NCBI GenBank assembly: GCA_015501595.1 | Contig: JADNRX010000027.1 | Span: 62,001 to 126,000, forward strand | Length of the DNA stretch: 64,000 nucleotides | Reading direction: 5' to 3' | DNA from: Hymenopellis radicata | Lineage: Eukaryota > Basidiomycota > Agaricomycetes > Agaricales > Physalacriaceae | Part shown: positions 8,000-46,701 of the stretch, one piece after another | Layout: every line of letters begins with the position of its first letter | Numbering within the stretch: the first letter of the stretch is position 1 | Notes under the pieces: model-generated | Seen by the model: the letters and a program-made list of their open reading frames with translations, nothing else | Told to the model about the DNA's origin: nothing | Databases searched by the model: none | Program-made: the position numbers and the translations under genes

Positions 8000-8020
8000 T
8001 ATAAAGAATAAGCAGCAAGA

Positions 8021-9580
8021 ATGTTCGCTGACCCTGTCCCGGGTGAACGGCAGTCAAACCGCACCGCACGCGTCGCTATGCTCCTAAAGGGAAACAACGC
8101 GCTCCACGATGTAGACAGCGCGGACCTGCGTGCTTTTCTGGACGGGGCCCCAGGCCGTCTGGCCAAATACGACGAAAAGATGGAACTGCTGCTGAAGGAC
8201 GTGAACGATCTCCACAAGGAGCGCGACGAGTTTCAATGCCGCATTCAGGAAGCCCGGAATCTCCTTCATCCCGTTCGCACGCTTTCCGACGACGTCCTCG
8301 GCGAGATATTCGCGCATTGCTTTCCTGAATGGGAGGCTTTGGAGAGGAAGCTCTTGAGCGAGCCGACCACTGACTATTCATCTCTCAACTCAAGCTATGC
8401 ACCCTGGACACTTTCCCAGGTTTGCTCTCGGTGGCGTCGCGTCACGCTTTCTACCCCGCGCTTGTGGTCGACGATCATGTTTACCTCCCCAGCGTTCCCG
8501 GCCAGGAAAAAGGCGTTATCCAGAGAGTTAGGCAGGCTGAACAGATTCTGCTACAACCTTGGGTTGTTTATGTCGCGTTCAGGAAACGTTGATCTCTCGG
8601 TTGCGATCACAGTACTGGAGGATGAGACCATACCGGACATGGTATTCACACATTTGGCAGTTGGCGCCGCGCGCTGGCGTCGTCTATGTTTCCGAGCCAA
8701 TGGAAACAGATTTCCTGCCGCATTGTCGGGGCTTGATTTCGAACGTTTGGAGGAAGCCATTCTCTCCAGTGACATACGAGTCATGGATGGGAAACGTCTC
8801 GCCTCTTTCCGGGCCGCCCCACGGCTGAGAAGACTGTACCTTGATGATGAGGCCAGATCTAGAGTCTTCTTGCCATGGTCCCGGATAACTCATTATGAGC
8901 GCGTGATCTACGCTCACGAATGGACTCTCCCCGCAATGCCCAATCTTACCCATCTGTTCCTTAGGGTTATTGGGTATCCGCGTGTGCCAGTTGGACGATC
9001 AAAGCTTTCCTTCCCAAACCTTTTGTCCCTTTCTATTGAACCTTGTACCGACATCTTCTTTTCAGCCCTGCTCCTCCAGTTGGAGGTACCAGCCCTCACC
9101 GACCTTCGCCTGACGACGTACCGATTGAGCAAAAGCAAGTCCATCACTCTCAGTCTTCCCGTAACGGACATGTTCCCCAAGCAATTGACGTCGATTCACA
9201 TTGCTTACGATGCTCCAAAATTTCGCGATGCAGACTCTGCCTCCCTCACGTCGTGGCTTCAACTCGCTACCGACGTAACTGCCTTGTCCATTCATCTTCC
9301 TAACATCCTTGATGCCCTTCTCCGCGACCTCCGTGTGCACGCAAAGAATGACGTGCTGGTACCCCGCCTCAGGTCTCTCGATTTATGGGTCACTGCCAAG
9401 GATGCGCAGATGTCGCCATCGAAAGTGCTTTCTGTTTTGGAGTCCCGTTCCGGATTGAAGCAGAACGTTTCGCGTCTCGAGGAATTCTGCACGAATGTGG
9501 ACGCTAACAGGTTTTCGGAAGGGAGACTGCAGAGGTGGCAGGATGTATGCCGGAAGGTCAAGGTCATTTGCCCTCGGTAA
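8021..9580 (+). CDS. F-box protein, single exon, 519 aa
   Basis: Intact open frame without introns. Residues about 40-85 are charged and helical (likely coiled coil). They are followed by the mushroom F-box signature: LHPVRTLSDDVLGEIFAHCF, then APWTLSQVCSRWRRV and STPRLWSTIMF (about residues 83-155). The remaining 360 residues look like degenerate leucine-rich repeats. Such proteins bind Skp1 in SCF ubiquitin ligases and pick substrates through the C-terminal repeats; target unknown. The family is highly multiplied in Agaricomycetes and three more members lie in this window. The promoter is shared with the MYND gene. ATG at 8021 is chosen because it directly follows that block. Confidence 0.85.
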   Translation: MFADPVPGERQSNRTARVAMLLKGNNALHDVDSADLRAFLDGAPGRLAKYDEKMELLLKDVNDLHKERDEFQCRIQEARNLLHPVRTLSDDVLGEIFAHCFPEWEALERKLLSEPTTDYSSLNSSYAPWTLSQVCSRWRRVTLSTPRLWSTIMFTSPAFPARKKALSRELGRLNRFCYNLGLFMSRSGNVDLSVAITVLEDETIPDMVFTHLAVGAARWRRLCFRANGNRFPAALSGLDFERLEEAILSSDIRVMDGKRLASFRAAPRLRRLYLDDEARSRVFLPWSRITHYERVIYAHEWTLPAMPNLTHLFLRVIGYPRVPVGRSKLSFPNLLSLSIEPCTDIFFSALLLQLEVPALTDLRLTTYRLSKSKSITLSLPVTDMFPKQLTSIHIAYDAPKFRDADSASLTSWLQLATDVTALSIHLPNILDALLRDLRVHAKNDVLVPRLRSLDLWVTAKDAQMSPSKVLSVLESRSGLKQNVSRLEEFCTNVDANRFSEGRLQRWQDVCRKVKVICPR

Positions 9581-10271: not shown

Positions 10272-11617
10272 TCAACGCTCGGCTAGCCAACCCTCCTCGG
10301 TGATGCAACTTGAATCTCCTTCAAACAGAAAGCGGCCACACGCTTTCAGGCGACTCCGGCGCTGAAGCATCTTGGTTACATCTTCGTGCTTGAAGAATGT
10401 AAGCTCCGGCGGCAAACTCTTCTTCTGGATACCGAAAACGAGCAGCAGTTGCTGGAGATTGGGGACCAAATCCACCGTTTCCAAATCCATCATCAACGCG
10501 GACAAAGCTTGGTCGACGCCGGAAACGAAAGCCGCCGTGTCAGGCAGGAACTGGTCGAACACAATGGTAAGGTCCTGCAAACGAGCTCGAGGACTGCTAC
10601 CAAGCCCGCCAAATCGCAGTTGATGAGTCCCAGTGACTCAAGCGGGCAGCGAGAATGTTTGACGAGGTCGAGGACCGAGGGAAGGATGGTTTCGAGCGAT
10701 ATACCGTCGATATCGCTGATGCTGAGCGTACGAAGCTGCGGAAGACGAACGAGGGTCAAGTCGGAAAAGAACTGACCGCCGAACGTGAAGTCTGTGATCT
10801 GGGAACTAACACGCTTATCGACTGGGGGTGAAGGCAATAGGAAACGCATGCCTAGCGCCTTGAGGAGGGGACAATGACGCAGTAGGTTGACAAGGGAGGA
10901 ATCATAGTAGGAGCCCTCCACACTGAATTCTGTTAGCTGGGCTTGCCCAGGAATACAGTGCACCACGACCTCCGCGGGAAAAACCAGACATATTCTCTTG
11001 AGAAGCGGGGCAGTTGTGAAGCTTAGAGTCCCCCAGAGCGCCTCGACATGGGTTTGAACATCGAGCTCCGTGAGCCGCGGAAGCCCGCCCCGAACACGTT
11101 CAAGGAAACACATGCACAGCGTATCAACCTCGATAAGTTGAATGGTACGCCATTGCGCACTGCGGTCCAACAAGACCTCAAATAAAGCAAAAGTTAGTAT
11201 AGAGAGATTGTCAGCGACATTTCCGGCGTCGTCCTCTACGGGACTGGCATCGAATGTGATGAACACATCCATCGCCTGTGCACGAGATACAATGAGGGAT
11301 AGTAGGGCGACCGGGTTTGAACATTTCGCAGCCAAAACACGCACAGGCACGTCTATGTGCCTCCACAGGCGAGGGCAGCGTGTGGCCACATCGCGCCAAG
11401 ACTGGCACAGATTGAGCAATGTCCAGCAATCGTTTCGAACACACAAGGCCTTGAAACCGTCTGGAGGCGTATGGTAGAGGAATATCTCCTCCATGAGCTC
11501 CCGCGGTAGTTCCTGGATAGGCGATACATTGTTGATAGAGGAAACGATTTGAATAGTGGGGACTGCAGGCGCGCTGCTTTCGGTTTGGTGCAAGTCGTTG
11601 TTCGCACTGATGGACAT
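10272..11617 (-). pseudogene. F-box protein with one frameshift near its 3' end
   Basis: Starting at 11617, residues 40-110 show the F-box pattern: IQELPRELMEEIFLYHTP, then NLCQSWRDVATRCPRLWRH. Leucine-rich repeat-like sequence follows. The frame is open for 374 codons, but at about 10590 the natural continuation (reading LQDLTIVFDQFLPDTAAFV) lies in another frame and runs open to 10272. One missing base would join them into a protein of about 460 residues. As it stands the last 20 or so codons are off-frame and the true C-terminal 100 residues are lost. The rest is undamaged, so this is either very young decay or a sequence error. Confidence 0.75.
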
Positions 11618-12100
11618 TGTGGTGTATTCAGGCGGGGAGGGAAGGCTGTCAATGTCGTTCAGGCAAGCCAGTACGACTTGAGGGAGCGGGGGCTTACCTT
11701 GATCGTTCTAGGAGGATGGCGGTTGCAGACAAAGAGGGCGATGATCACGTTATAAACAGAACGCTCCGAATAGGGCACCAAAGTCGGCCAAACAAATGTC
11801 CTCGGATAATACCCATTGACGCCTATATTAGGCAATGTGGACCTCTAATAAAAAACGAATTAAGCCCTGCCAAACTAAATCAAACAAACGGAGAGGCCAC
11901 CATAATTAGTTCCAAGAATCTGTGGCGCAATTTACCGCCGGTGTGATCGTGATAAAGGCGAGTAACTTATATGCTGTTAGTCTGTTGCCATGCGTACAGA
12001 GTGTATAGAGGAGACCTACCGGGATAATTGCTAGAGGAGATGCGAACGTATCGCGGCATGTTTAGTTAAACCTGCCGAACTAAGAGGAAGGATCGCCCCA
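11618..12100. other. Intergenic, nothing recognised
   Basis: No open frame with recognisable composition. It contains the 5' flank of the minus-strand F-box gene. Confidence 0.4.
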
Positions 12101-19477: not shown

Positions 19478-19884
19478 ACTGAGCCTTCCTCTCTCTCTCC
19501 CTATCTGCCTTCGCGGCCTGCCCTGTATTGGATATTTTGGCGGTCAATGCGCCTCCATACAATGCGGGACGAAGAATGCCGCCGACGTTCATGGACTATA
19601 TCAGTCGTCCTGCCGCGGGACTCTGCCACTTAACAGGTGAATCCCAGTGAGAAGTCTGTCTAGGGAAAGCTAGCTCAATAAAGCATAAACAAGGAACTCG
19701 ATCGAACAGTTTCTTTCGCTCTATACTTCCTCCGATATGATGCTATATATTTATTGCTTTCTAATGAGGACAAAGTCCCTAGTCTCCCTTAGGCAGACTC
19801 GATCAAAGCTGACACTTTGATCTAGAGTCTGCTTTCATACGCCGCGTCCTTATAGGAGCTCGGAAAAAGACTCCCACTTTTCTT

Positions 19885-19937
19885 AATTTGGACAAATTCA
19901 CGTGATCAAAGCCTTATTTGGACAAATTCACGTGATC
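19885..19937. repeat. Tandem pair containing CACGTG
   Basis: Two copies, 30 bases apart, of TTTGGACAAATTCACGTGAT. Each contains the palindrome CACGTG, the core recognised by many basic helix-loop-helix factors. No adjacent gene is obvious, so a regulatory role is speculative. Confidence 0.5.
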
Positions 19938-20015
19938 CACTAAGCGCCGTTTTCTTCTTCTTCCACTTTGTCGTTAACTTATGGGCTCGGGGTTTCGGGG
20001 ATTTGGTGGTTATTT

Positions 20016-20262
20016 TGTGTAAAAATTCAACTTTTAACTTAGGCCAAATGGGGCCCAGTTCAGCGAACTTTCAAGAGTTAGAATCCCGGTTGCCAAGTTG
20101 GAGTCTAACTTTTCAAAGTTGAACATCAACTAACTTGAACTTTCAAAGTTGGCAGTCTACTCCCAAAAGTTCACTGGAACCCCAGAAGTTGACATCAAGT
20201 TGAGGAAAGTTCGATGGCTGCCTCAAAGGAGGTCCGCCGCCCCGCCGTCGGGCGGGAGTTCT
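20016..20262. repeat. AACTT/AAGTT-rich array, left copy
   Basis: Starts with TGTGTAAAAATT (20016-20027), continues with a dozen degenerate units of the form GAACTTTCAAAGTTG (to about 20216) and ends in a GC-rich stretch (CCGCCGCCCCGCCG, about 20232-20245). The same three-part structure occurs in inverted orientation at 27733-27967. Confidence 0.8.
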
Positions 20263-20781
20263 AGACCCGTCACATGACTGATCGTCATATGTGGCGTGCC
20301 CGACCATGGCCCGAGTGCGTCCCGAACAAGCTCCAAAGACTGACAGCTGTCGTTCGCACACAATGGGACAATGCACTTTATTATTCTCATTCTCACAATG
20401 CAGTTTATTTGCACAGTGAATAAGTATTTGGGTGCTGCAAGCGCCTGGAGTTCGGGTTAGCACCATCTGGAAATCAGTGTAGCCTTACTTCACAAGTCTG
20501 ATGGAATCAAACTTACAGAAGCCTGGAAAGGACTCAGAAGGATACTCTAGCTCAGAATAGACATCAACACCGAGCACCAGAGGATTGGACTTAGAACATT
20601 GCCAACCAGTATAAGTAGCTGTAGAAAACACCGCCGGCGTTCTAATTCAGATGCTTTGTGCACGCTGTTTGGCTCCCATATCTTAGAATCATATAAATAT
20701 CAACAACTTGCTGGGCCTTGGGTCGTATCTCATCCTATAAACACCTCCAGCCAGCTGCCTATCCCTCTCTACGAGAAAATC
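20263..20781. other. Upstream region of the J-domain-like gene
   Basis: No separate gene recognised. The minus-strand open frame across 20143-20466 reads through the array and is not credible. Confidence 0.4.
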
Positions 20782-23700
20782 ATGCCTTTCGACCCCAAGA
20801 CTCTCGGAAAGTGCAACAAAACGGACTGTGCATGTGGTATTGCGTTTGTCGATGGCAAGGATGAGGCGGACTACAAGCCCATTGATAACTGTGGCGTATG
20901 TGGTGACCCTATCGGCATGCATGTGCAGGTACGATTTTTGATTGATTATTCTCTTTCATCACTTACATAAGCAACCTCAAGTTTTCCGCTCCTGCCACCA
21001 CCACCACCACTGCCGGTAATGCCGAGGCTGTAAAGGTATGTCTTTGTATGCCTCTTAAACTCGAGATATTGACCAGAGTTAAACTAGCCCAAGACTCAGA
21101 CTAATAAAGTCGATCCCACTACCTTTGGAGGAGCCACGGCGGAAACTCTCTTTGGTGTACGCGAGAAGCCCAAGAACGACTCAGACACTCCCTCCTTTCA
21201 CAGCTCTGGCAGCTGGAAGAAGACCGATGCTCCGTTTCGGGACTTTTCAAAGACGCGCGAAGAAAACCGAAACAAGGCCGCGGCGGCGCAAGGTATCAGC
21301 GTTCCAAAATTTGATCCCTCAGAAAAAGTAAGCAGCTCAACGGTCTCTGATTCTGTATGTCTTACAAATATCTCTTTCCAGATTACAGTCGACAAACTTG
21401 CCAACCGAACAGGACGCCCACCTGTATCCCGGAAGTCGAAGAAGGTTGACCCTGCTGCAAAGCCGAAGGCAGCTCCCCCCAAAAAGCCCGCCACAGTCAT
21501 TTTGATACCGGAAACCAAGGCGGCCCACCAAGAGGAAATACGCCGACCTTCACGCGCCAGGTAGTATGACTTTTGTCCTCTTTCACACCTTTCTTACACA
21601 GCTCTCTGTCTAGATACGAGGCTCTTGGTCGACCGGAGAACAAGTATGTTCGATCTATAGAGGTTACAGAAGACTCGACTGGGCGCGATATGGCCGGCAT
21701 CATCTTCAGCACCTTCGAGAATGTCCTTCCGACCTCCTCCACCTCGCCTCCAGAACTCTTTCATATGATGGACGTTGTTGGCAACGGTCGTGGTGCACCC
21801 TCTATTCTCATCCCTAACGAATGGGTTCAACAAGGTGCAGGATCATATGCGGACATCAAGGGGTACGTACTATACTGCAACTGTCTCCATTTTAGACTGT
21901 CAGAGCTCATATCGTCCTATAGTGTCAATTCTAAATACCACCCATCCGGAATGAAACCCGAAGAAGTCGTATTCCCGATTTATATCTGTCTGGCCAAGCA
22001 GCACGACGATCTTCCTTTCGTCGAGCCGACAATCTTCAAAGGACCAAAATCCGCCAAGGTGCGTCACTGACTAATTTGAATTTTCATGCAGGACACTTAC
22101 AGAAAGGGTTGTATAGCGCACGCGTTCCTCGATTGATGAAGACGAGAAGGAGGCCAAGCGTCAAAAGCCCGACTCCAAGGTGGACGAACAAGCGATGGAT
22201 GATACAGACGATCCGATACCTGTACCACCAATGCCTACCATCGATCATAAGGTCTTGAAGTCCTCACCGCAAGTTGCTTCCATCTCTCATCCCTTCTCTG
22301 TTAGGTCCTTGAATTCCCGAAGTCTCTACAGCAGGCTCAGCGATATGTTTTGAACACTTGTTTCCCTGCAGACAAACCCCGAGGATTCGCAAATGGATAT
22401 GGAGCAAGCGGCCGATGGGTAAGCCTCTCATTCATCGACGAGGTACTGATATCTAATTTCATTCTTACCCATATGCAGACCACACTCGCTCTTGCTCCCC
22501 CATACGACGCATTTCCCATTCAGACCGGTCGTGCTCAGAATCTTCTTGAGCTTCTGAAGCTGTCCGACATGACTGCCAGCCTGGCTTGCAAGATGCTTTG
22601 CAATGACTTCTCCCATATCCTGGCCTTTGCTCCCTTCACTGAGCTTCACGCGTGGCTGGAAGGCGCCCCGCTTGGGCATGACCTCAAACCAGAAGACAGT
22701 CCTCTATTCATGGACAAGTTCCGGTTGGGGCCAATGGGTATGTCACTGGTTGTTGAGGCGTTGCTCTTGATGTTCGGGGTGATCAAGAGGATTTCTGAAA
22801 TGCCCGGTTTGTCGGATTCCGAGTTCCAGGACCTACGCGATCGCCACACTGAGCTCTCGGACTTTGCCCAGGTCATGGTAAACCTGATGGATTTTTTCTT
22901 CGAGAATGTGGAGCGCCGATTTTGGTATCCGAAAACGGGTTTTCGTCAGCTAGAGGCGGTGGTTGCAATCAACACCCCGCTCTTGAAGGATCTTGTAAGT
23001 CTCTTCAGTCATTAATTGCTGCTCCGGTGATGATTTGTTTTCCTCAGCCCACTGCTGGAGCATTATCTCCCATTGATACCGGCCTTACTCGATTGCGCAA
23101 ACTCCTTGCAGACGATACAAGCACGGTCGTTGTCATCCGTGCCCATCTCGAGAGTTTCCTCGGCAGCGCGGAGGATCCTTCAAGAATGACCATCGACATC
23201 GTCTCCCTCGGGAAGTATGGTCTTGACAAGCTGCTGGACATTCTCCGCTGTTACGTTGAAGATCGTCCCATCCACAAGCACTATGAAGCGTGCATGGCAT
23301 TGTTGGGGAAGCTTGCTGGCGCTGTTGCATGGAAGGTCTTCCATTACCTCTCCGTAAGTCGAATGCGCGTAGACTGCGGTCCTTCTGCTGAATCAAAATG
23401 CTCTTCTCTAGCATCCCCAGCATTACAACCATCCTCCGTCTGCTACAGCTCGTGGAAGAAAGGTAAGTTCTTATTTCTGTTCCAGAGCAGCTGCTGATTT
23501 CTTCGCAGATGAAAAGGAATCCGGCGTTCGTATACTCCAAAAAATATCGTTTTGAGTACTAACAACTTTACAGCACCGGAACTTTTCATCCGGAGGAACT
23601 GGGGCTAGATTTCGACGACGGTATGTACTCATGCATGCGCTATACCAGGTCTTTATTCATTCCGCGTCCAGAGCTCCCTCCCATGCCGGACTCTCCTGAC

Positions 23701-24188
23701 TCCGAGTGGTACTTGATGCTTATCATTCCCAGTACGGTCTCCTCTCAATACGAGTCGCCTCCCCACTAATGACACTGTAGACCTTTCCAGCCAGAGATCG
23801 ACAGCGTGGAAGGATTCCACAGCGTCAAGTCCCGAACCGTCTAAACCATCTCAGAACGTAGCGTCGAGCGTCGACCCAAGACTTTTGAATGCGCGCGAAT
23901 TGGCAGGAGCCACGATGTCCAAGGATAGCCTCCTTCGTCGCCTTCGAGTGGAATTCCCCCATCCAGATATGGCAACGCGTCAGCGATTCGAAACCGCAAT
24001 TCTGGACCCAGAAGACAAAAAGCAATACTTTGCTGCTCAACGGGTTTGTACCCTTCACCTCTCTACACCTTCCACCATTGACTTTCTCGCAGGCATACCA
24101 CCCCGACAAGAACCGTTCGTCGGGTAGCATTTGGGTTGAGATCTGCACCCAGCTGAACTGTGCCATCAACAAGGCCTTCGGAAAGTAG
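20782..24188 (+). CDS. Many-exon protein with Cys-rich N-terminus and J-domain-like C-terminus
   Basis: About a dozen exons can be chained. The N-terminus (20782-20928) is Cys-rich: CNKTDCACGIAF, CGVCGDP. A proline/lysine-rich stretch follows (about 21000-21560), then a globular part (21615-22060) and an acidic nuclear-localisation-like stretch (EDEKEAKRQKPDSK, about 22130). A long helical region spans about 22480-23352. The C-terminus reads LRRLRVEFPHPDMATR, then AYHPDKNRSSGSIWVEIC to the TAG at 24188. The HPD tripeptide in a helix-loop context suggests a degenerate J-domain, as in an expanded mushroom family I know only as hypothetical proteins. Most joins keep frame. One join near 22425-22480 does not, so a frameshift or missed splice site exists. 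It lies inside the candidate 8-kb element and may be cargo. Confidence 0.55.
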
Positions 24189-26097
24189 TCAACATATTAG
24201 TGTATCTCATACAAATATGTATTTCTTGTGCGTCGAATTGTATCCCATTTCTTGTGTATCACACTAGCATGAATTGTCGGAATGAAGAAAAATCGGCCTC
24301 AGACAGGAGAGCTCACCATCTGTGGTCACAGAGTAACCGGTACGTTGGGTCCGTCGCCATAAAACGCGCTTTCTGACATCGAGGTCGTGGGGAGGATGGC
24401 GTGCTCCAGGTGCCGGTCGATGTCAAAGGATGCTGAGCGACGTCTCAGGGTCCTGGTCGCCGTGTCGAAGGAGAGAGAGGTCGCACAGAGCGGGACTTAG
24501 CTCGTATGTCTTGCCGCGATGGAGAATGTAGAGCGTCAGGTTGGCGTCAGGTCGTATCTAAAAGAGACATAAATACGGGCAGGGGAAGGGACAGAGTAAC
24601 TCACAATTACCCGTTAAATGAGGCGCAACGAACTGCTCCGAGTTACACGACGGCGACAGCACAGACAGGTGCAAGAAATAATTGCCCCGCGACGGCAGTG
24701 AACTGCTTTGGTACTAGCGTGTGCGTTCCCTTGAGACCGCCCGGGTAAGTCAGCCTAGCGCTGGCAACGTCTGCTGTCAGTGCTTACAGGCGGTCTGAGG
24801 GAGTAAACAAAACGGGCTCGCCTCTTTATACTAACACGGTCGCGTTCAACGCGTGACCATATGCATGTAGTAAACAAAGGAGAGGAGTCGGTATGTTTTC
24901 CATTGTTGTCTTACACCAGACTTACCCTTTTGGGTGCGATCTCCGCACTTCGCCTCTCGCTCTCATGTCTGAACACGTTTACTTTCAATTCGCCGTTGAA
25001 TTCTACGACGACAATGGGCTCAACAACAACGACATGTTCAACGGCGCCGACGGGTTCAACGACGACAACAGGCTCAACGACTGTACCCACCAAACACGTC
25101 GCGAGTTCTATCACGCATCCGTTGCATGTGTGGGCATCTGTACGGCAGCGAGGAAATGCCTAGGATGGTGTTGTTGTGCGTATCCTTCCTTGATCTTCAA
25201 GGTCCACTAGCTCACTATCTTTCTCTTCGACACTCAAGTTGCTTGAAGTCGGTGGCTCAGCGTTGACGACATCGGTACAACCATTCGGCCATCGCTCTCG
25301 GATTATCTCTGTCTCGTCGACGACAATGTGCCGCGGGAGGGAACAAACGGTCGTCCTATACGCCGAGTATTGGTGCCGGCAACCACAAGGTATGTCGTTT
25401 TCCGCTTTTGAACTTGCACACTGACAAACTGCAGTGACATCTCGATGCACTCACCTCTGTCAGCGCCTTTTCCTGCGGTATTCAACACCCTGGTGTCTAT
25501 CCGTTGGCTTCGTCGACGAGTAGCTCGCGTACGTTCTCCTGTTCCGCCTTCTATACCATTTGTGACCTTTTCCATAGCTAAGTACCCTGTATGTACTATT
25601 GCTACTATCGACTCGAGTCCCGGACGACATACTCGGGCGACCTTGCCCTCTAGTCTCCTATCCACACCACTCATCCTGAGACTAGCACGGACGAGCATGG
25701 ACAAATGGTAAGTAGACGTCCCTCATTCATTGTTTAGGCTTCTACTGATGTCTATGACAGTTGGGAATACGGATGCCTTGCTTTCACCCGCGACGTTTGG
25801 GATGTTGTCCTCGCGCGACGCGTCCTTGTCCCGTTTGGCTTCGCACCGGTGGGAAACGATGCCGCTTTGGATGCGGAAGACAGTTGGCATATGTTCATTA
25901 GCACAATCTCTGTTCGCAGCCTCTTCATTCCCTCTCATCTAATTTGTTACCTGTCATGTTTCACTTGTACTTGTATATAACAATAACAAGGTAGGTAGCA
26001 GCAGAACAATATTATTGGCTTTCTGATTCTACCAGCTTTGATTCGATGTGTTTCTAATCGGGTCCGTCGGATGGCTTGCTCTTGACCGTCACCTTCC
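24189..26097. other. Region without a firm gene; Thr/Ser-coding simple repeat
   Basis: No complete gene could be built. At 24990-25085 a 12-base periodic tract reads STTTTGSTT-like in one frame. Open frames at 25303-25704 (minus) and 25445-25711 (plus) mirror each other and show no domain. Possibly decayed coding sequence of the same element. Confidence 0.35.
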
Positions 26098-27667
26098 ATG
26101 GCGGACAGAGACAATGTCCAACGATTTCTCTCGCACTGCCATACTCTCTGCAATGAGGCTCGTTTCGCCATCTCCTCATTCCCAAACGCAGAAGTCGCAA
26201 CGGTGGAACGGCTCGCACATCAGCTGTACGCGACTCGCACCATTTTACATGGCCTGGACGACCCTTTTCTCACCGAGGTGCAAATCGAAATCATGCTGGA
26301 TCATCTTGATTCCTTTCTTCGCCAGCTAGATGCCTTTCTAGAGACACCACCCCACCTACCTCTGATAGTCTTCCTCGCGTCTACACGGGGCGCCCTGGTC
26401 GTCCTCGTTACGACATAGACCTAGAGAGGGTTTGTCTGCTTCATGACCTGGGAAGTACGTGGGAGGGCATCGCTGACGCGTTCGGCGTAGAGAGAAGGAC
26501 TCTCTACAACCATTTGGGCAGAGCAGGTCTCTCGTCGGCACGCAAGCCGTTCACCGAGATTACGGACAACGACTGGATGAGGAGGTTGCAAAGATCTCCA
26601 TTCAGCATCCTTTGTCGGCTCGGCCATCATCCAAGGTCATCTCGAGGTTCTTGGGATTCACCTGCCCGCACAAGAGTGCAAGATAGCCTGCGACGCGTCG
26701 ATGCAATGGAGTCCTTACAAGGTATTTCTCTGTTTTCTAAGCTTAGTGAAGCCACCTAAAAGATTGTAGATGGGCTTGTGTAACGAAAAGACGTGTATAC
26801 AAAGTACGCGGTTCAAATGCGCTTTGGCATCAGGATGGACACGAGAAGTTGAAGCATTGGGGCTTTTGGGTACATGGCTGCGTGGACGGACACTCACGTC
26901 TCATCATCTACATGGAGTGCCGTTCGAACAAGCGCTCCGACACTGTTTTCCAATGCTTCCTGGCTGGGGTGGCGCTGTTCGGCTGGCCTAGTCGCGTCCG
27001 CGGAGATTTTGGGCCAGAGAACAACAAGATAGAGAAAGCAATGGTTCGGCATTGGGGGAAGCTCATCGCGCATATTTACGGGCCGGTATGACTAATGTTT
27101 CTCATACTTCTGACCATTTCTGAGCCCTTTTGCAGGTCGACACACAATGTCAGAATCGAAAGACTTTGGGTCGACATACAAAAGGACGCACTCGAAGCTT
27201 TTCGACAGATCTTTCTGTACTTGGAGCAAAACGGCTTATGGGAGAAGGAAAACGCCCTCCATTGCATCTGTCTCTTTCTGGTTTTCCAGCCGCGCATCCA
27301 AGCTGCTCTCAACCGCGCCAAGCATGCATGGAACCATCACAAGATCCGGACGGCGCGGAATCAGACACCGGTTGCGATGTACGCCCTCAGCCGACAGAAG
27401 TTGATGAATCAGGGTGTCTGGACAGGCGACGTCGGAGACGATGTATCATGTGTCGATGGATTCTACGGGGTGGAGGGTGCAGAGGATGAGGGACTGGCGA
27501 TGCCGTCTGTTGACCCCAATGACCCGAACTCTGCACTTGCGGAGGATGCCGACATTGAAGCAGCAAGACAGGCACTGGGCGACTTTGATTTTGAGGAGGA
27601 GGATGGGAACTGGGGAATAGATGTGTATTGCAAGGCTGTTATCCAGTTACATGCTTGTATTTCATAG
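26098..27667 (+). pseudogene. Decayed DDE integrase-core transposase
   Basis: The sequence follows the integrase-core DDE family common in Agaricomycetes (also found in animals). An N-terminal helix-turn-helix-like part reads GRPRYDIDLERVCLL and AFGVERRTLYNHLG. The catalytic core shows the first Asp in WHQDGHEKL (about 26824), the second Asp in RGDFGPEN (about 27000) and the Glu in NVRIERLW (about 27150). WNHHKIRT and an acidic tail end at the stop at 27667. The frame changes at least at about 26365, 26575, 26615, 26810 and at the intron near 27080, so it cannot encode an active enzyme now. It sits next to the right AACTT array, which could be its terminal binding region. Confidence 0.75.
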
Positions 27668-27732
27668 TCGGTAACTCGGTATAGAGGTACTTTCTGGCTT
27701 TACATAAGCAGCGCACACATCCCAAATAAGCA

Positions 27733-27967
27733 GGTGGCGGCGGCGGCGCGGCGCGTAGTGGTAGAGCTTGTTTCTTTAAGTTTTATCCAACTTCCGCAAG
27801 TTCAGGTCAACTTTGGAAAGTTGGAGCCAACTTCGAGAAGTTCAATGGTACTTTGTCAAGTTCCATCAAACTCCGAAAAGTTCACTCTTACTTTCTCAAA
27901 GTTCACTCGTACTTTGCCGAAGTTCGCCAAAAAAAAGTGAGAAGTTCGCAAAAATAATTTTTACACA
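27733..27967. repeat. AACTT/AAGTT-rich array, right copy (inverted)
   Basis: Read on the minus strand it starts with TGTGTAAAAATT (27956-27967), continues with repeated GAACTT and AAGTTGG units (27775-27945) and ends with CGCGCCGCGCCGCCGCCGCC near 27755. It mirrors the left array. Confidence 0.8.
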
Positions 27968-27996
27968 GTATAACGCCCATAAGAGGATTCTCCTTT

Positions 27997-28346
27997 CATC
28001 AAGCCTGAAATATAGTTCAGTGAGCTATAACAGTGCGTAGAACGCGTGACTAACGAAAGGTGGTTGGTGGTAAGAAACAAAGTTGGACGGCAATAACAGG
28101 CCGGTGATGGAAGTGCCAAAAAAGGCAAGCACCTTCAACCTCAACATCTCAGATGATTTCCTGTGGTAGGGCGGCGACGCGCCCAGGTGGTTTTCCTTGC
28201 ATCAAGCCTGAAATATAGTTCAGTGAGCTATAACAGTGCGTAGAACGCGTGACTAACGAAAGGTGGTTGGTGGTAAGAAACAAAGTTGGACGGCAATAAC
28301 GGGCCGGTGATGAAAGTGCCAAAAAAGGCAAGCACCTTCAACGTCA
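27997..28346. repeat. 203-bp direct tandem duplication
   Basis: Bases 27997-28143 recur at 28200-28346 with about four differences; both begin CATCAAGCCTGAAATATAGT. The 56-base spacer is single-copy. The duplication lies directly outside the right end of the candidate element. Confidence 0.9.
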
Positions 28347-28472
28347 ACGTACTAGTTTATCCTCTACGACTCGGCTCTCCTCGTCAGCACTGTAAAACAT
28401 TTCCTTATAAGATTGGTACATGTCCAAGCATAGATAAGCGACAGACAATAAATATCATATACACCTGGCAAA
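28347..28472. other. Spacer before the deuterolysin remnant
   Basis: No feature recognised. Confidence 0.3.
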
Positions 28473-45208: not shown

Positions 45209-46701
45209 ATGAGCTACGAGCATGGTGTCGTGTATTCCCCAAACAAAATTGAGGCTCCCACCTCGACGCTGGAAAATCTACGCGATCATGGAGTCTGTGA
45301 GTTTCCCAGCTTCTTCGCCGTGCCCACCGTTGACATGCACAGCGTATGTGCGCGTGTACTGGGTCGACCTAGGCAACGTTCGAAGATGTCGCGTCCTGCC
45401 GATCCAGTACTTCAGCGATCTTGTCCACTCCAACCGTCCAGGCGTGAACGTCGCGAGTGTCGGGGTAGGTCTGGTCTATCTAATGATGCCCGAGGGATTT
45501 TCAGGCGTCGGCGAGTATCTGTATGTGATCGACATGAGCTCGCTCCGGATACTGTATGGGGTTGGTTCTAGGCCCATTGGGGCTGTACTAGGGCGCTTCG
45601 AGCAGAAGGATGTCGCCCGCTTGGGGAGGGAGGTCAAGTGGGATCCACGGACAGCGCTGGCCAAGGCGGTCGAGTGAGTCAATGCTCGGTGTTAAGCCCG
45701 ATATCGCCGAGCTGACTAAGTGTAGCACAGCCAAAAGCGCTGGCATCGAGTTTCTCGTTGGCTTCGAGTCTGAGTTTATCTTGCTCAAGTCCACGGACCC
45801 CGTTGTTCCCTCGAATGTGCACCAGTGGTCAGGGACAACTGCCATGCTCAATGGATCTGCGGAAGCGGCTATCCTCGAAAACATCGCCGATGCCTTGCGC
45901 GATAGTCACATCCCGCTCCAGATGTATCACGCTGAGGCGGCGCCGGGACAGTACGAGATAGTCACTGGACCAGCGAACCCTATGAAGGCTGCAGATGCCG
46001 TCGTCTATACGCGTGAAATCATAGTGAATGTCGCTGCCAAACACGGTCTACACGCGACATTCGCGCCTCGTCCCTTCATGTACAGTGCGGGATCCTCGAC
46101 GCATGCGCATGTTTCAATTCATTCCTCGATCCAAAAGTCTGCGGAAATGACGGTACACGAAAAGAGCTTCCTTGCGGGGATTCTGGACCATTTGCCTGCC
46201 ATTGCCGGGTTCACGCTGCCCACCCCGGCCTCCTACAAGCGCGTTGGCGATGGTGTTTGGAGCGGTGGTACATATGTGTCGTATGGCACGGAAAACCGAG
46301 AGGCGCCCGTGCGCTTGACCAACGCTGCGTCTCCATTGTCGAGAAACTTTGAGCTTCGGTTCATTGATGGTACGGCTAATCCATATTTCGCATTAGCTGC
46401 GATTCTGGCAGCTGGGATGAAGGGTATTGAAGCGAAGCAGGCACTCCAGATGAGTGATTGTGGAACGAAGATGGCTGCCGAGATGACAGAGGCAGACAGG
46501 CAAGAAATTGGCATCAAGAAGCGGATGCCTTTGACTGTAGAAGAAGCGCGAGACAACTTGAAGGCTGATGAAGTGTTGGTGGACGTGCTTGGTAAGGAGC
46601 TGGTTGAAAAGTACTTGGCGGTCAACAAGACGCTTGGAGACGCGTTAACGCAAGACAAGACGGATGAAGCTCAACTGACGCGATTGGTAGAATATTTTTG
46701 A
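45209..46701 (+). CDS. Glutamine-synthetase-like enzyme (type I fold)
   Basis: Exons 45209-45296, 45343-45673 and 45726-46701 give 464 residues. The N-terminal beta-grasp domain begins YVRVYWVDLGNVRRCRVLP. The catalytic domain keeps the metal-ligand motifs FESEFIL and APGQYEI, the THAHVSIH His segment, the substrate-binding NREAPVRL and the FELRFIDGTANPY Glu/Arg motif. It belongs to the GlnA-type (GSI-related) proteins found in fungi beside the normal eukaryotic GSII, near the C-terminal half of FluG. These often act as gamma-glutamyl-amine ligases rather than in bulk ammonia assimilation; the substrate cannot be told here. The complete motif set suggests it is active. Confidence 0.85.

Follow-up and report, generated by a model that had tools for sequence, protein, structure and literature searches.

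The window analysed here, a 64,000-nt stretch of the Hymenopellis radicata genome, carries a transposon of 7980 bp at 20002..27981, the limits where homology to other copies begins and ends. Coordinates are positions in the window, and C-numbers (C1235, C796 and so on) denote other contigs of the same genome. The element has imperfect 26-bp terminal inverted repeats (TIRs; 21/26 bases match between left and right), subterminal motif arrays and two genes, a DDE transposase and a second gene, here called the partner. The termini and flanks are these:

20002..20027, plus strand: left TIR, TTTGGTGGTTATTTTGTGTAAAAATT, at a homology boundary common to other copies; left-type pattern
27956..27981, minus strand: right TIR, TATGGGCGTTATACTGTGTAAAAATT on the minus strand, at a homology boundary with other copies
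19778..20001, no strand: left flank, a dispersed repeat with copies elsewhere, containing TTATGGGC, mistaken for the terminus
27982..27987, no strand: AGAGGA, right-hand target duplication of an insertion whose complete form is on C1235, by comparison with that copy
28146..28210, no strand: paralogous empty site, the corresponding flanks joined without the element, reading AGGTGG in place of the AGAGGA of the filled site

The left end had originally been placed at 19979, whereas homology with other copies begins at 20002. The outer boundary is rejected: TTATGGGC there is part of the neighbouring dispersed repeat, which continues unbroken at C736, C519 and C656. TGTGTAAAAATT, reported just inside both ends, is present at both. 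On C1235 the element is flanked by AGAGGA at either end. The window copy lacks a target-site duplication (TSD), as had been noted, because its two flanks come from two different insertions: the right flank is that of the C1235-type insertion and the left is the dispersed repeat. The paralogous empty site adjoins the window element.

Inside the TIRs lie the arrays and their bordering blocks:

20028..20212, no strand: left subterminal array of AACTT/AAGTT half-sites, 13 per 260 bp vs 1.3 expected
27777..27950, no strand: right subterminal array of AACTT/AAGTT half-sites, 12 per 260 bp vs 1.9 expected
20225..20265, no strand: GC-rich block bordering the left array on its inner side, limits approximate, direct reading
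27733..27757, no strand: GC-rich block bordering the right array on its inner side, limits approximate, direct reading

The predicted arrays are confirmed at both ends by half-site counts far above those of dinucleotide shuffles: neither count was reached in any of 200. In the right array, palindromic units recur 20–21 bp apart, giving six palindromes vs at most one in 200 shuffles. The GC-rich blocks, also foreseen, are present by direct reading at the inner edges of both arrays, and blocks resembling the left one are seen in some other copies.

The original prediction proposed as its own check a search for further loci bearing both of these ends in inverted orientation around related genes. 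Such loci exist, and the recurring inverted pairs support its claim that the parts form one large transposon. A TIR search under strict rules gave no match, and the rules were then relaxed. With up to two mismatches, the right-type pattern has 61 genome matches vs 0 for the reversed control, and the left-type pattern 50 vs 1. Thirteen of the 50 left-pattern matches were right-type TATGGGGG ends and were removed before facing combinations were counted; 36 such combinations lie within 20 kb, some with an end in common. Eight facing pairs carry TATGGGGG at both ends, a count made from the TIR pattern alone, TSDs forming no part of it, after two of ten right–right combinations (C850 and C585) had been removed because they mix different ends. 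Perfect 6-bp TSDs are found at six of the nine loci with both ends (C1235, C796, C1273, C484, C993 and C865); the remaining three (the window copy, C90 and a second element on C37) lack them. C1273, C484 and C993 hold short derivatives that retain TIRs, arrays and TSDs but have no partner match. Other DNA, including a CK2-like fragment, has been acquired by short derivatives. Chance, or a simple-repeat artefact that sets unrelated arrays around unrelated genes, is of negligible probability as an explanation; nothing favours it except that short motifs are of low complexity, and it is opposed by the inverted-pair copies with TSDs and by the shuffling and reversed-pattern controls.

The genes are as follows:

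20782..24188, plus strand: second (partner) gene, about 15–16 exons (exon models; NCBI protein BDZ89DRAFT_1035446, 873 aa; families compared)
20782..20928, plus strand: partner exon 1 with the Cys-rich motif CNxxDC..C...C..C..H (members of five families)
23781..24188, plus strand: last two partner exons, J-domain-like C-terminus with HPDKN (5/5 families)
26098..27667, plus strand: DDE transposase gene with rva_4 integrase core, HTH-like N-half, about three exons and five frame breaks (Pfam profile and spliced model)

The DDE integrase-type transposase read from the window is recovered by PF24764 on two exons (E 1.2e-30 and 1.4e-24). Its counterpart on C629 matches PF24764 (rva_4) at E 2.2e-59, above the cut-off, and rve at E 3.8e-4, below it; by inspection it contains D, D and E, with 34 residues separating the second D and the E. 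A GRPGRP stretch and weak, below-cut-off HTH matches mark the N-half. The gene had been called decayed. Its spliced model does contain five single-base frame breaks, but at least some are probably technical. All five fall beyond 26.3 kb. From there to the element end, the window and C1235 copies differ by 11 single-base lengths and 0 substitutions; before that point they differ by four substitutions and no lengths. Error is suspected because every break falls in the stretch where the two copies differ by single-base lengths, never by substitutions, and sequencing or assembly error is likely to lie behind at least some of the breaks. The C1235 transposase has three breaks of its own, and three of the ten transposases modelled in the genome are free of frame breaks and stops. 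The further claim that the element is now inactive is not supported, given an open partner gene, partly technical-looking breaks and these three unbroken transposases.

The second gene is confirmed to have many exons, a Cys-rich start and HPDKN near its end, the part that had been described as J-domain-like. In the window copy its frame is open. The protein is laid out as a Cys-rich N-terminus, a variable basic linker, a conserved core and a J-like C-terminus. The NCBI protein (P0001) is 97% identical to the first exon model, which departs from it at about residues 715–755; the NCBI protein was used thereafter. The Cys-rich motif is present in members of all five families, with C445/C545 standing in for the C629 family, whose C629 model is without this part. 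DnaJ is the main Pfam match of the J-like end; it appears at E<=1 in 4/5 family members, the best score of 16.5 bits lying below the PF00226 gathering score of 27.8. The HPDKN stretch aligns in register with DNAJA1 (E 0.03), and a low-confidence structure model (three sequences; mean pLDDT 36.9) places helices on both sides of HPD. An NCBIfam scan gave no match. Protein database searches with the partner returned only three H. radicata proteins among the roughly 8,000 candidates scored per search; same-genome partners of other families were likewise not matched.

At 14/16 loci of the lineage the partner sits upstream of the DDE gene in the same orientation; alleles and close copies are among these 16, which therefore do not count as independent. 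The two exceptions are C37, which begins at a contig edge, and C895, with a weak 20% match on the opposite strand. The other rva_4 clade occurs on 24 contigs, none of which has a partner match. All 18 contigs that do have one, with 50 of 91 candidates scored, carry it beside a DDE match, a TIR or a contig end. Selection was estimated by dN/dS for all pairings of the window, C1235 and C796 copies and for C956/C752, the remaining pairs being left out because dS was saturated or nearly so. Between the window and C796, dN/dS is 0.12 for the partner (804 codons, dS 0.92) and 0.07 for the DDE gene (470 codons, dS 0.17); for C956/C752, likewise a close pair (dS 0.05), the ratio is 0.38, a weaker value. 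In C796 the partner gene is interrupted: about 1.35 kb sets its J-like end apart, the NCBI model P0002 stops before that end, and the end lies outside the stretch compared. The substitution pattern shows purifying selection on the partner in one informative pair, window vs C796.

The partner had been proposed as a passenger. That it is a host gene carried along is very improbable. Short derivatives took up foreign DNA, the CK2-like fragment included, and capture therefore does occur; set against this are the fixed position and strand at 14/16 loci, in families as distant as 31% identity, the purifying selection and the company kept on all 18 partner-matched contigs among the 50 of 91 candidates scored. 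The fixed place and the selection on the informative pair are why the passenger claim is not supported, and the gene has the look of an integral helper, not of captured cargo. An IS3EU/GingerRoot-like DNA transposon whose unit of mobility comprises two genes is the preferred reading, at a probability of about 0.9.

The two proteins diverge to different degrees. Between five families, identity is 31–46% for the partner vs 65–78% for the DDE protein, whose catalytic stretch reaches 80–92%; the transposase N-half, with its HTH-like stretch, is also variable (mean 59–69% by region). The array half-site differs between families (AACTT, CACTT, TACTT, GGCTT), and the TIR stays similar. The motif scan covered 19 ends; C1235, C90, C1080, C581, left C993, right C37:2860, C484:14242 and C484:17487 lay outside it. 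C863 has direct repeats and C956/C752 a core of another kind; a few TACTT sites also occur in some AACTT-family ends. The half-site change can be assigned to neither protein because partner and transposase co-diverge.

For the two-gene element, the following mechanism is proposed. The transposase would recognize the conserved TIR and perform catalysis. The partner, perhaps via its Cys-rich N-terminus, would bind the arrays, which in many ends consist of palindromic half-sites, spaced two helical turns apart in the right array of the window element. Once bound, it may join the ends or open their chromatin, and its J-like end may recruit Hsp70 to remodel the end complex. Short copies with both ends and without the partner gene would be mobilized in trans. 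That the partner reads the arrays has about an even chance of being correct. The fuller proposal is tentative: in this IS3EU-like lineage, a fast-evolving J-like partner and the arrays may form a family-specific lock and key through which the recruitment of Hsp70 is linked to recognition of the ends or to evasion of silencing.

Binding of the arrays could instead fall to the transposase alone, through its GRPGRP/HTH-like N-half, leaving the partner another role. The GRPGRP stretch and weak HTH matches lie in a region more variable than the catalytic part; the N-halves of the window and C37 copies are nearly alike, however, and their arrays read AACTT vs CACTT, a comparison that is suggestive only because the partner of C37 falls off the contig. 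This alternative appears doubtful.

By analogy, the partner might be a sequence-specific anti-silencing factor that, once bound to the arrays, protects the element from methylation and maintains its transcription, with the transposase alone handling the ends. The model is VANC of Arabidopsis VANDAL elements, described as a fast-evolving, element-encoded protein that is paired with family-specific tandem noncoding motifs and causes loss of DNA methylation (PMC5735166); family-specific array motifs and a fast-evolving partner with a variable linker match that description. Other fungal IS3EU elements carry a TET/JBP gene that is reported as a probable aid in escaping methylation (PMC12730594), and the J-domain protein SILENZIO acts on Arabidopsis transposons, though as a repressor (PMC8616336). 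Against this, the arrays directly adjoin the TIRs in the ends read, the position expected for end recognition, and an anti-silencing role is judged somewhat unlikely.

Under the preferred two-gene reading, a J-like second gene with 31–46% identity across families and motif-switching arrays, beside a steady TIR and transposase, offers a testable case of protein–DNA co-evolution within a selfish element. If correct, it would place an Hsp70 co-chaperone-like protein in transposition or anti-silencing. Several families with different array motifs in one genome provide a ready comparative set.

Known systems share parts of this design. En/Spm elements have CACTA termini and a 3-bp TSD, and VANDAL elements are Mutator-like; to our knowledge neither TNPA of En/Spm nor VANC has a J-like domain. 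A J-like chaperone partner is not known to us from any eukaryotic transposon described so far, and literature searches listed none.

The closest likeness is to IS3EU/GingerRoot. The IS3/IS481-like DDE integrase core, a criterion of that group, is present here. These transposons have been described by transposase and ends and, in rusts, by alpha-kinase and TET/JBP genes; rust-fungus members are reported to have TAYGG..CCRTA termini and TIRs of >30 bp (PMC10045372, PMC12730594). The present element agrees in its 6-bp TSDs, TATGG right terminus, integrase-type DDE transposase and extra gene, as in fungi. It differs in the TTTGG left terminus of the window family, in a TIR match over 26 bp rather than >30 bp, and in a J-like partner where rust IS3EU has alpha-kinase or TET/JBP. 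It also has subterminal arrays, and the word 'subterminal' occurs 0 times in the text of PMC12730594. Alpha-kinase has one match in the genome, on C113, and Tet_JBP three below-cut-off matches, on C391, C1362 and C699, none of them a contig matched by rva_4. Either as a further element gene is rejected, the genome matches never occurring with the element.

In functional layout the element resembles En/Spm (CACTA), for which published work describes a transposase plus a second protein (TNPA, TNPD), motif arrays inside the termini, divergence of array motif and second protein among En/Spm-type elements, and deleted copies that keep cis sequences and are movable in trans (PMC2613891). Here too a transposase and a second protein accompany subterminal arrays, and motif and partner diverge. 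The transposases are unrelated, and the present element has TTTGG/TATGG termini and a 6-bp TSD. With VANDAL/VANC it shares a fast-evolving element-encoded protein and family-specific motifs, in a lineage that is not Mutator-like; the function reported for VANC is loss of DNA methylation (PMC5735166).

The element is a transposon. It has terminal inverted repeats (TIRs) and 6-bp target-site duplications (TSDs), and it carries two genes in a fixed arrangement: a DDE transposase and a second, conserved gene, here called the partner. Copies were sought in one H. radicata assembly (75.5 Mb, 1405 contigs, denoted by C-numbers), in which the window is C596:62001-126000. The limits of the window copy, 20002 and 27981, are the points where homology to other copies begins and ends.

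Features of the window copy (7980 bp)
Left TIR, starts at 20002: TTTGGTGGTTATTTTGTGTAAAAATT, 26 bp, 21 of 26 bases as in the right TIR
Partner, 20782..24188, plus strand: many-exon gene
Transposase, 26098..27667, plus strand: rva_4 integrase-type gene
Right TIR, ends at 27981, minus strand: TATGGGCGTTATACTGTGTAAAAATT, 26 bp, inverted relative to the left

The difference between left and right TIRs is seen again in other copies. The original prediction had set the left end at 19979. The sequence there, TTATGGGC, is ruled out as a terminus, because it belongs to a dispersed repeat, which at C736, C519 and C656 continues past this point without a break. The predicted recurrence of the ends as inverted pairs at other loci of this genome was found. 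With up to two mismatches, the right-type pattern gave 61 matches (reversed control, 0) and the left-type pattern 50 (reversed control, 1). Thirteen left-pattern rows were right-type ends and were removed, leaving 98 termini. Within 20 kb these make 36 facing combinations, among them ones that share an end or are nested. C1080 is probably the other allele of C796, as their left flanks nearly match. At C956 (positions 1-1700 of its locus) TIRs of different families adjoin, which suggests nested or clustered insertions. Both ends are available at nine loci, and perfect 6-bp direct repeats flank six of these.

Target-site duplications
C1235: AGAGGA
C796: TGTATG
C1273: CTTGTT
C484: CATTCG
C993: GAATCG
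C865: GGCGAG

No perfect 6-bp repeat flanks the window copy, C90 or the second C37 element; C90 and C993 have a left flank in common. For the window copy, where a TSD had already been reported missing, the flanks bear this out: the right one is that of C1235 (AGAGGA) and the left one is the dispersed repeat. They therefore come from two different insertions, brought together either in a chimeric assembly or through recombination between copies. At about 28146-28210, close by, is a paralogous empty site, where the corresponding flanks are joined without the element and AGGTGG replaces AGAGGA. The right flank also holds a 158-bp direct repeat (27988-28348, 97%, spacing 203 bp), with a related further copy at C596:151623-152175.

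Up to 26.3 kb the window copy and C1235 differ by four substitutions and no length differences; from there to the element end the only differences are 11 single-base changes in length. Five more such length differences lie in the right flank up to about 28.65 kb, and none in the 6.3 kb before the cluster. The stretch from 26.3 to about 28.65 kb is probably a low-quality part of the assembly. The transposase, described earlier as decayed, does carry five frame breaks (that of C1235 has three of its own), but at least some are likely technical, because the cluster fits a poorly resolved stretch.

The transposase has an rva_4 integrase core (PF24764), an HTH-like N-terminal half and D, D and E residues. 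Three of ten modelled transposases have neither frame break nor stop. The rva_4 matches of the genome fall into two groups: 16 loci in a lineage near that of the window, and 24 contigs (e.g. C1207, C697 and C619) holding a more distant set, in which some open frames are near 500 aa or longer. In 14 of the 16 close-lineage loci the partner lies upstream of the DDE gene and shares its strand. The 16 include alleles and close copies and are thus not independent events. At C37 the upstream part would fall beyond the contig edge; at C895 there is only a weak (20%) partner match, on the opposite strand. Four more loci carry the partner without a close DDE match (C1237, C445, C545, C1080), and in the last three the contig ends near the expected DDE position. 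None of the 24 distant-set contigs gave a partner match, with 50 of 91 candidates scored and a strongly diverged partner able to escape. Elsewhere in the window are a glutamine synthetase catalytic domain (45592-46701) and two F-box-like matches below cut-off (8012-9580; 10493-11707).

The partner matches the annotated H. radicata protein BDZ89DRAFT_1035446; a protein-database search, whose word-based filter misses distant relatives, returned H. radicata proteins only. The N-terminus of the partner is Cys-rich and is followed by a basic linker that varies, a core that may be helical (a low-confidence prediction) and a C-terminus with HPDKN in all five families. When the protein is compared by sequence with solved structures, DnaJ chains are the top matches (best E 0.03). 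The main Pfam match, DnaJ, falls under its cut-off, so the protein is termed J-like rather than a J protein.

Between the window copy and C796, dN/dS is 0.12 for the partner (804 codons, dS 0.92) and 0.07 for the transposase (470 codons, dS 0.17). The C796 partner gene is split by about 1.35 kb just before the J-like end, which lies outside the stretch compared, and the final few dozen aligned codons of its model look misread. In a second close pair, C956/C752, the values are 0.38 for the partner (at dS 0.05) and 0.07 for the transposase. DNA identity between the window copy and C796 is 92% in the right part (25921-27981) and 77% in the left (20002-23919); the J-like end, 93-97% identical, groups with the right. 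These identities and the unequal dS of the two genes point to mosaic elements, the right part having been exchanged more recently.

Short copies of about 2.7-3.0 kb on C1273, C484, C993 and C90 retain both ends. Three of them (C1273, C484, C993) were tested for the partner and gave no match; on C993 and C1273 the tail of the DDE gene survives. The C1273 copy (C1273:47883-50708) contains a piece matching the beginning of casein kinase 2 alpha (E 7e-5), and a similar piece was read by eye in the C993 copy (C993:16002-18707). From this resemblance, both have probably captured a host gene fragment.

The subterminal arrays were scanned in nineteen ends of 260 bp against 200 shuffles. The nine ends of the window family are enriched in AACTT/AAGTT (9-13 sites per end). 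CACTT/AAGTG is enriched in C865, C37, C1237 and C863 (six ends, 6-11 each), GGCTT/AAGCC in C956 and C752 (three ends, 6-8 each), and TACTT plus CACTT in the C629 end (nine and six). None of the shuffles came up to these numbers. Mixing is slight: the second C37 end and some right ends of the AACTT family also hold 3-5 TACTT sites. Fourteen AACTT- and CACTT-family ends were tested for palindromes of two half-sites. Twelve hold more than their shuffles do, with at most 1 in 200 reaching the count, and the C865 right and C484 left ends do not; the scanned ends of C863, C956 and C752 have none. Units of the window right array are spaced 20-21 bp, two helical turns, apart.

The TIRs are alike across families despite the change of half-site. 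Among five families, identity is 31-46% for the partner, 65-78% for the transposase and 80-92% for its catalytic stretch. The transposase would read the conserved TIR, and the partner would read the arrays specific to its family, either to assemble the ends or to open chromatin; its J-like end may recruit Hsp70. The partner may thus act in end assembly or in anti-silencing, and the arrays are possibly read by the transposase instead.

The 6-bp TSD, TATGG right terminus and integrase core fit IS3EU/GingerRoot elements as outlined in PMC10045372 and PMC12730594. Their reported termini are TA..TA, from which the left terminus, TTTGG, departs; the element, placed by its TSD, termini and integrase core, is therefore filed as IS3EU/GingerRoot-like. 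In these descriptions, TET-carrying IS3EU elements also bear an alpha-kinase gene; in the genome search neither gene accompanies the element. Open-licence literature, searched by titles and abstract starts, yielded among the matches listed no description of such an element with a J-like partner. The nearest functional analogues, as far as the cited accounts go, are TNPA/TNPD of En/Spm, two proteins that are both required and of which TNPA binds the subterminal repeats (PMC2613891), and the fast-evolving VANC of VANDAL elements, which co-evolves with tandem motifs and counters silencing (PMC5735166).
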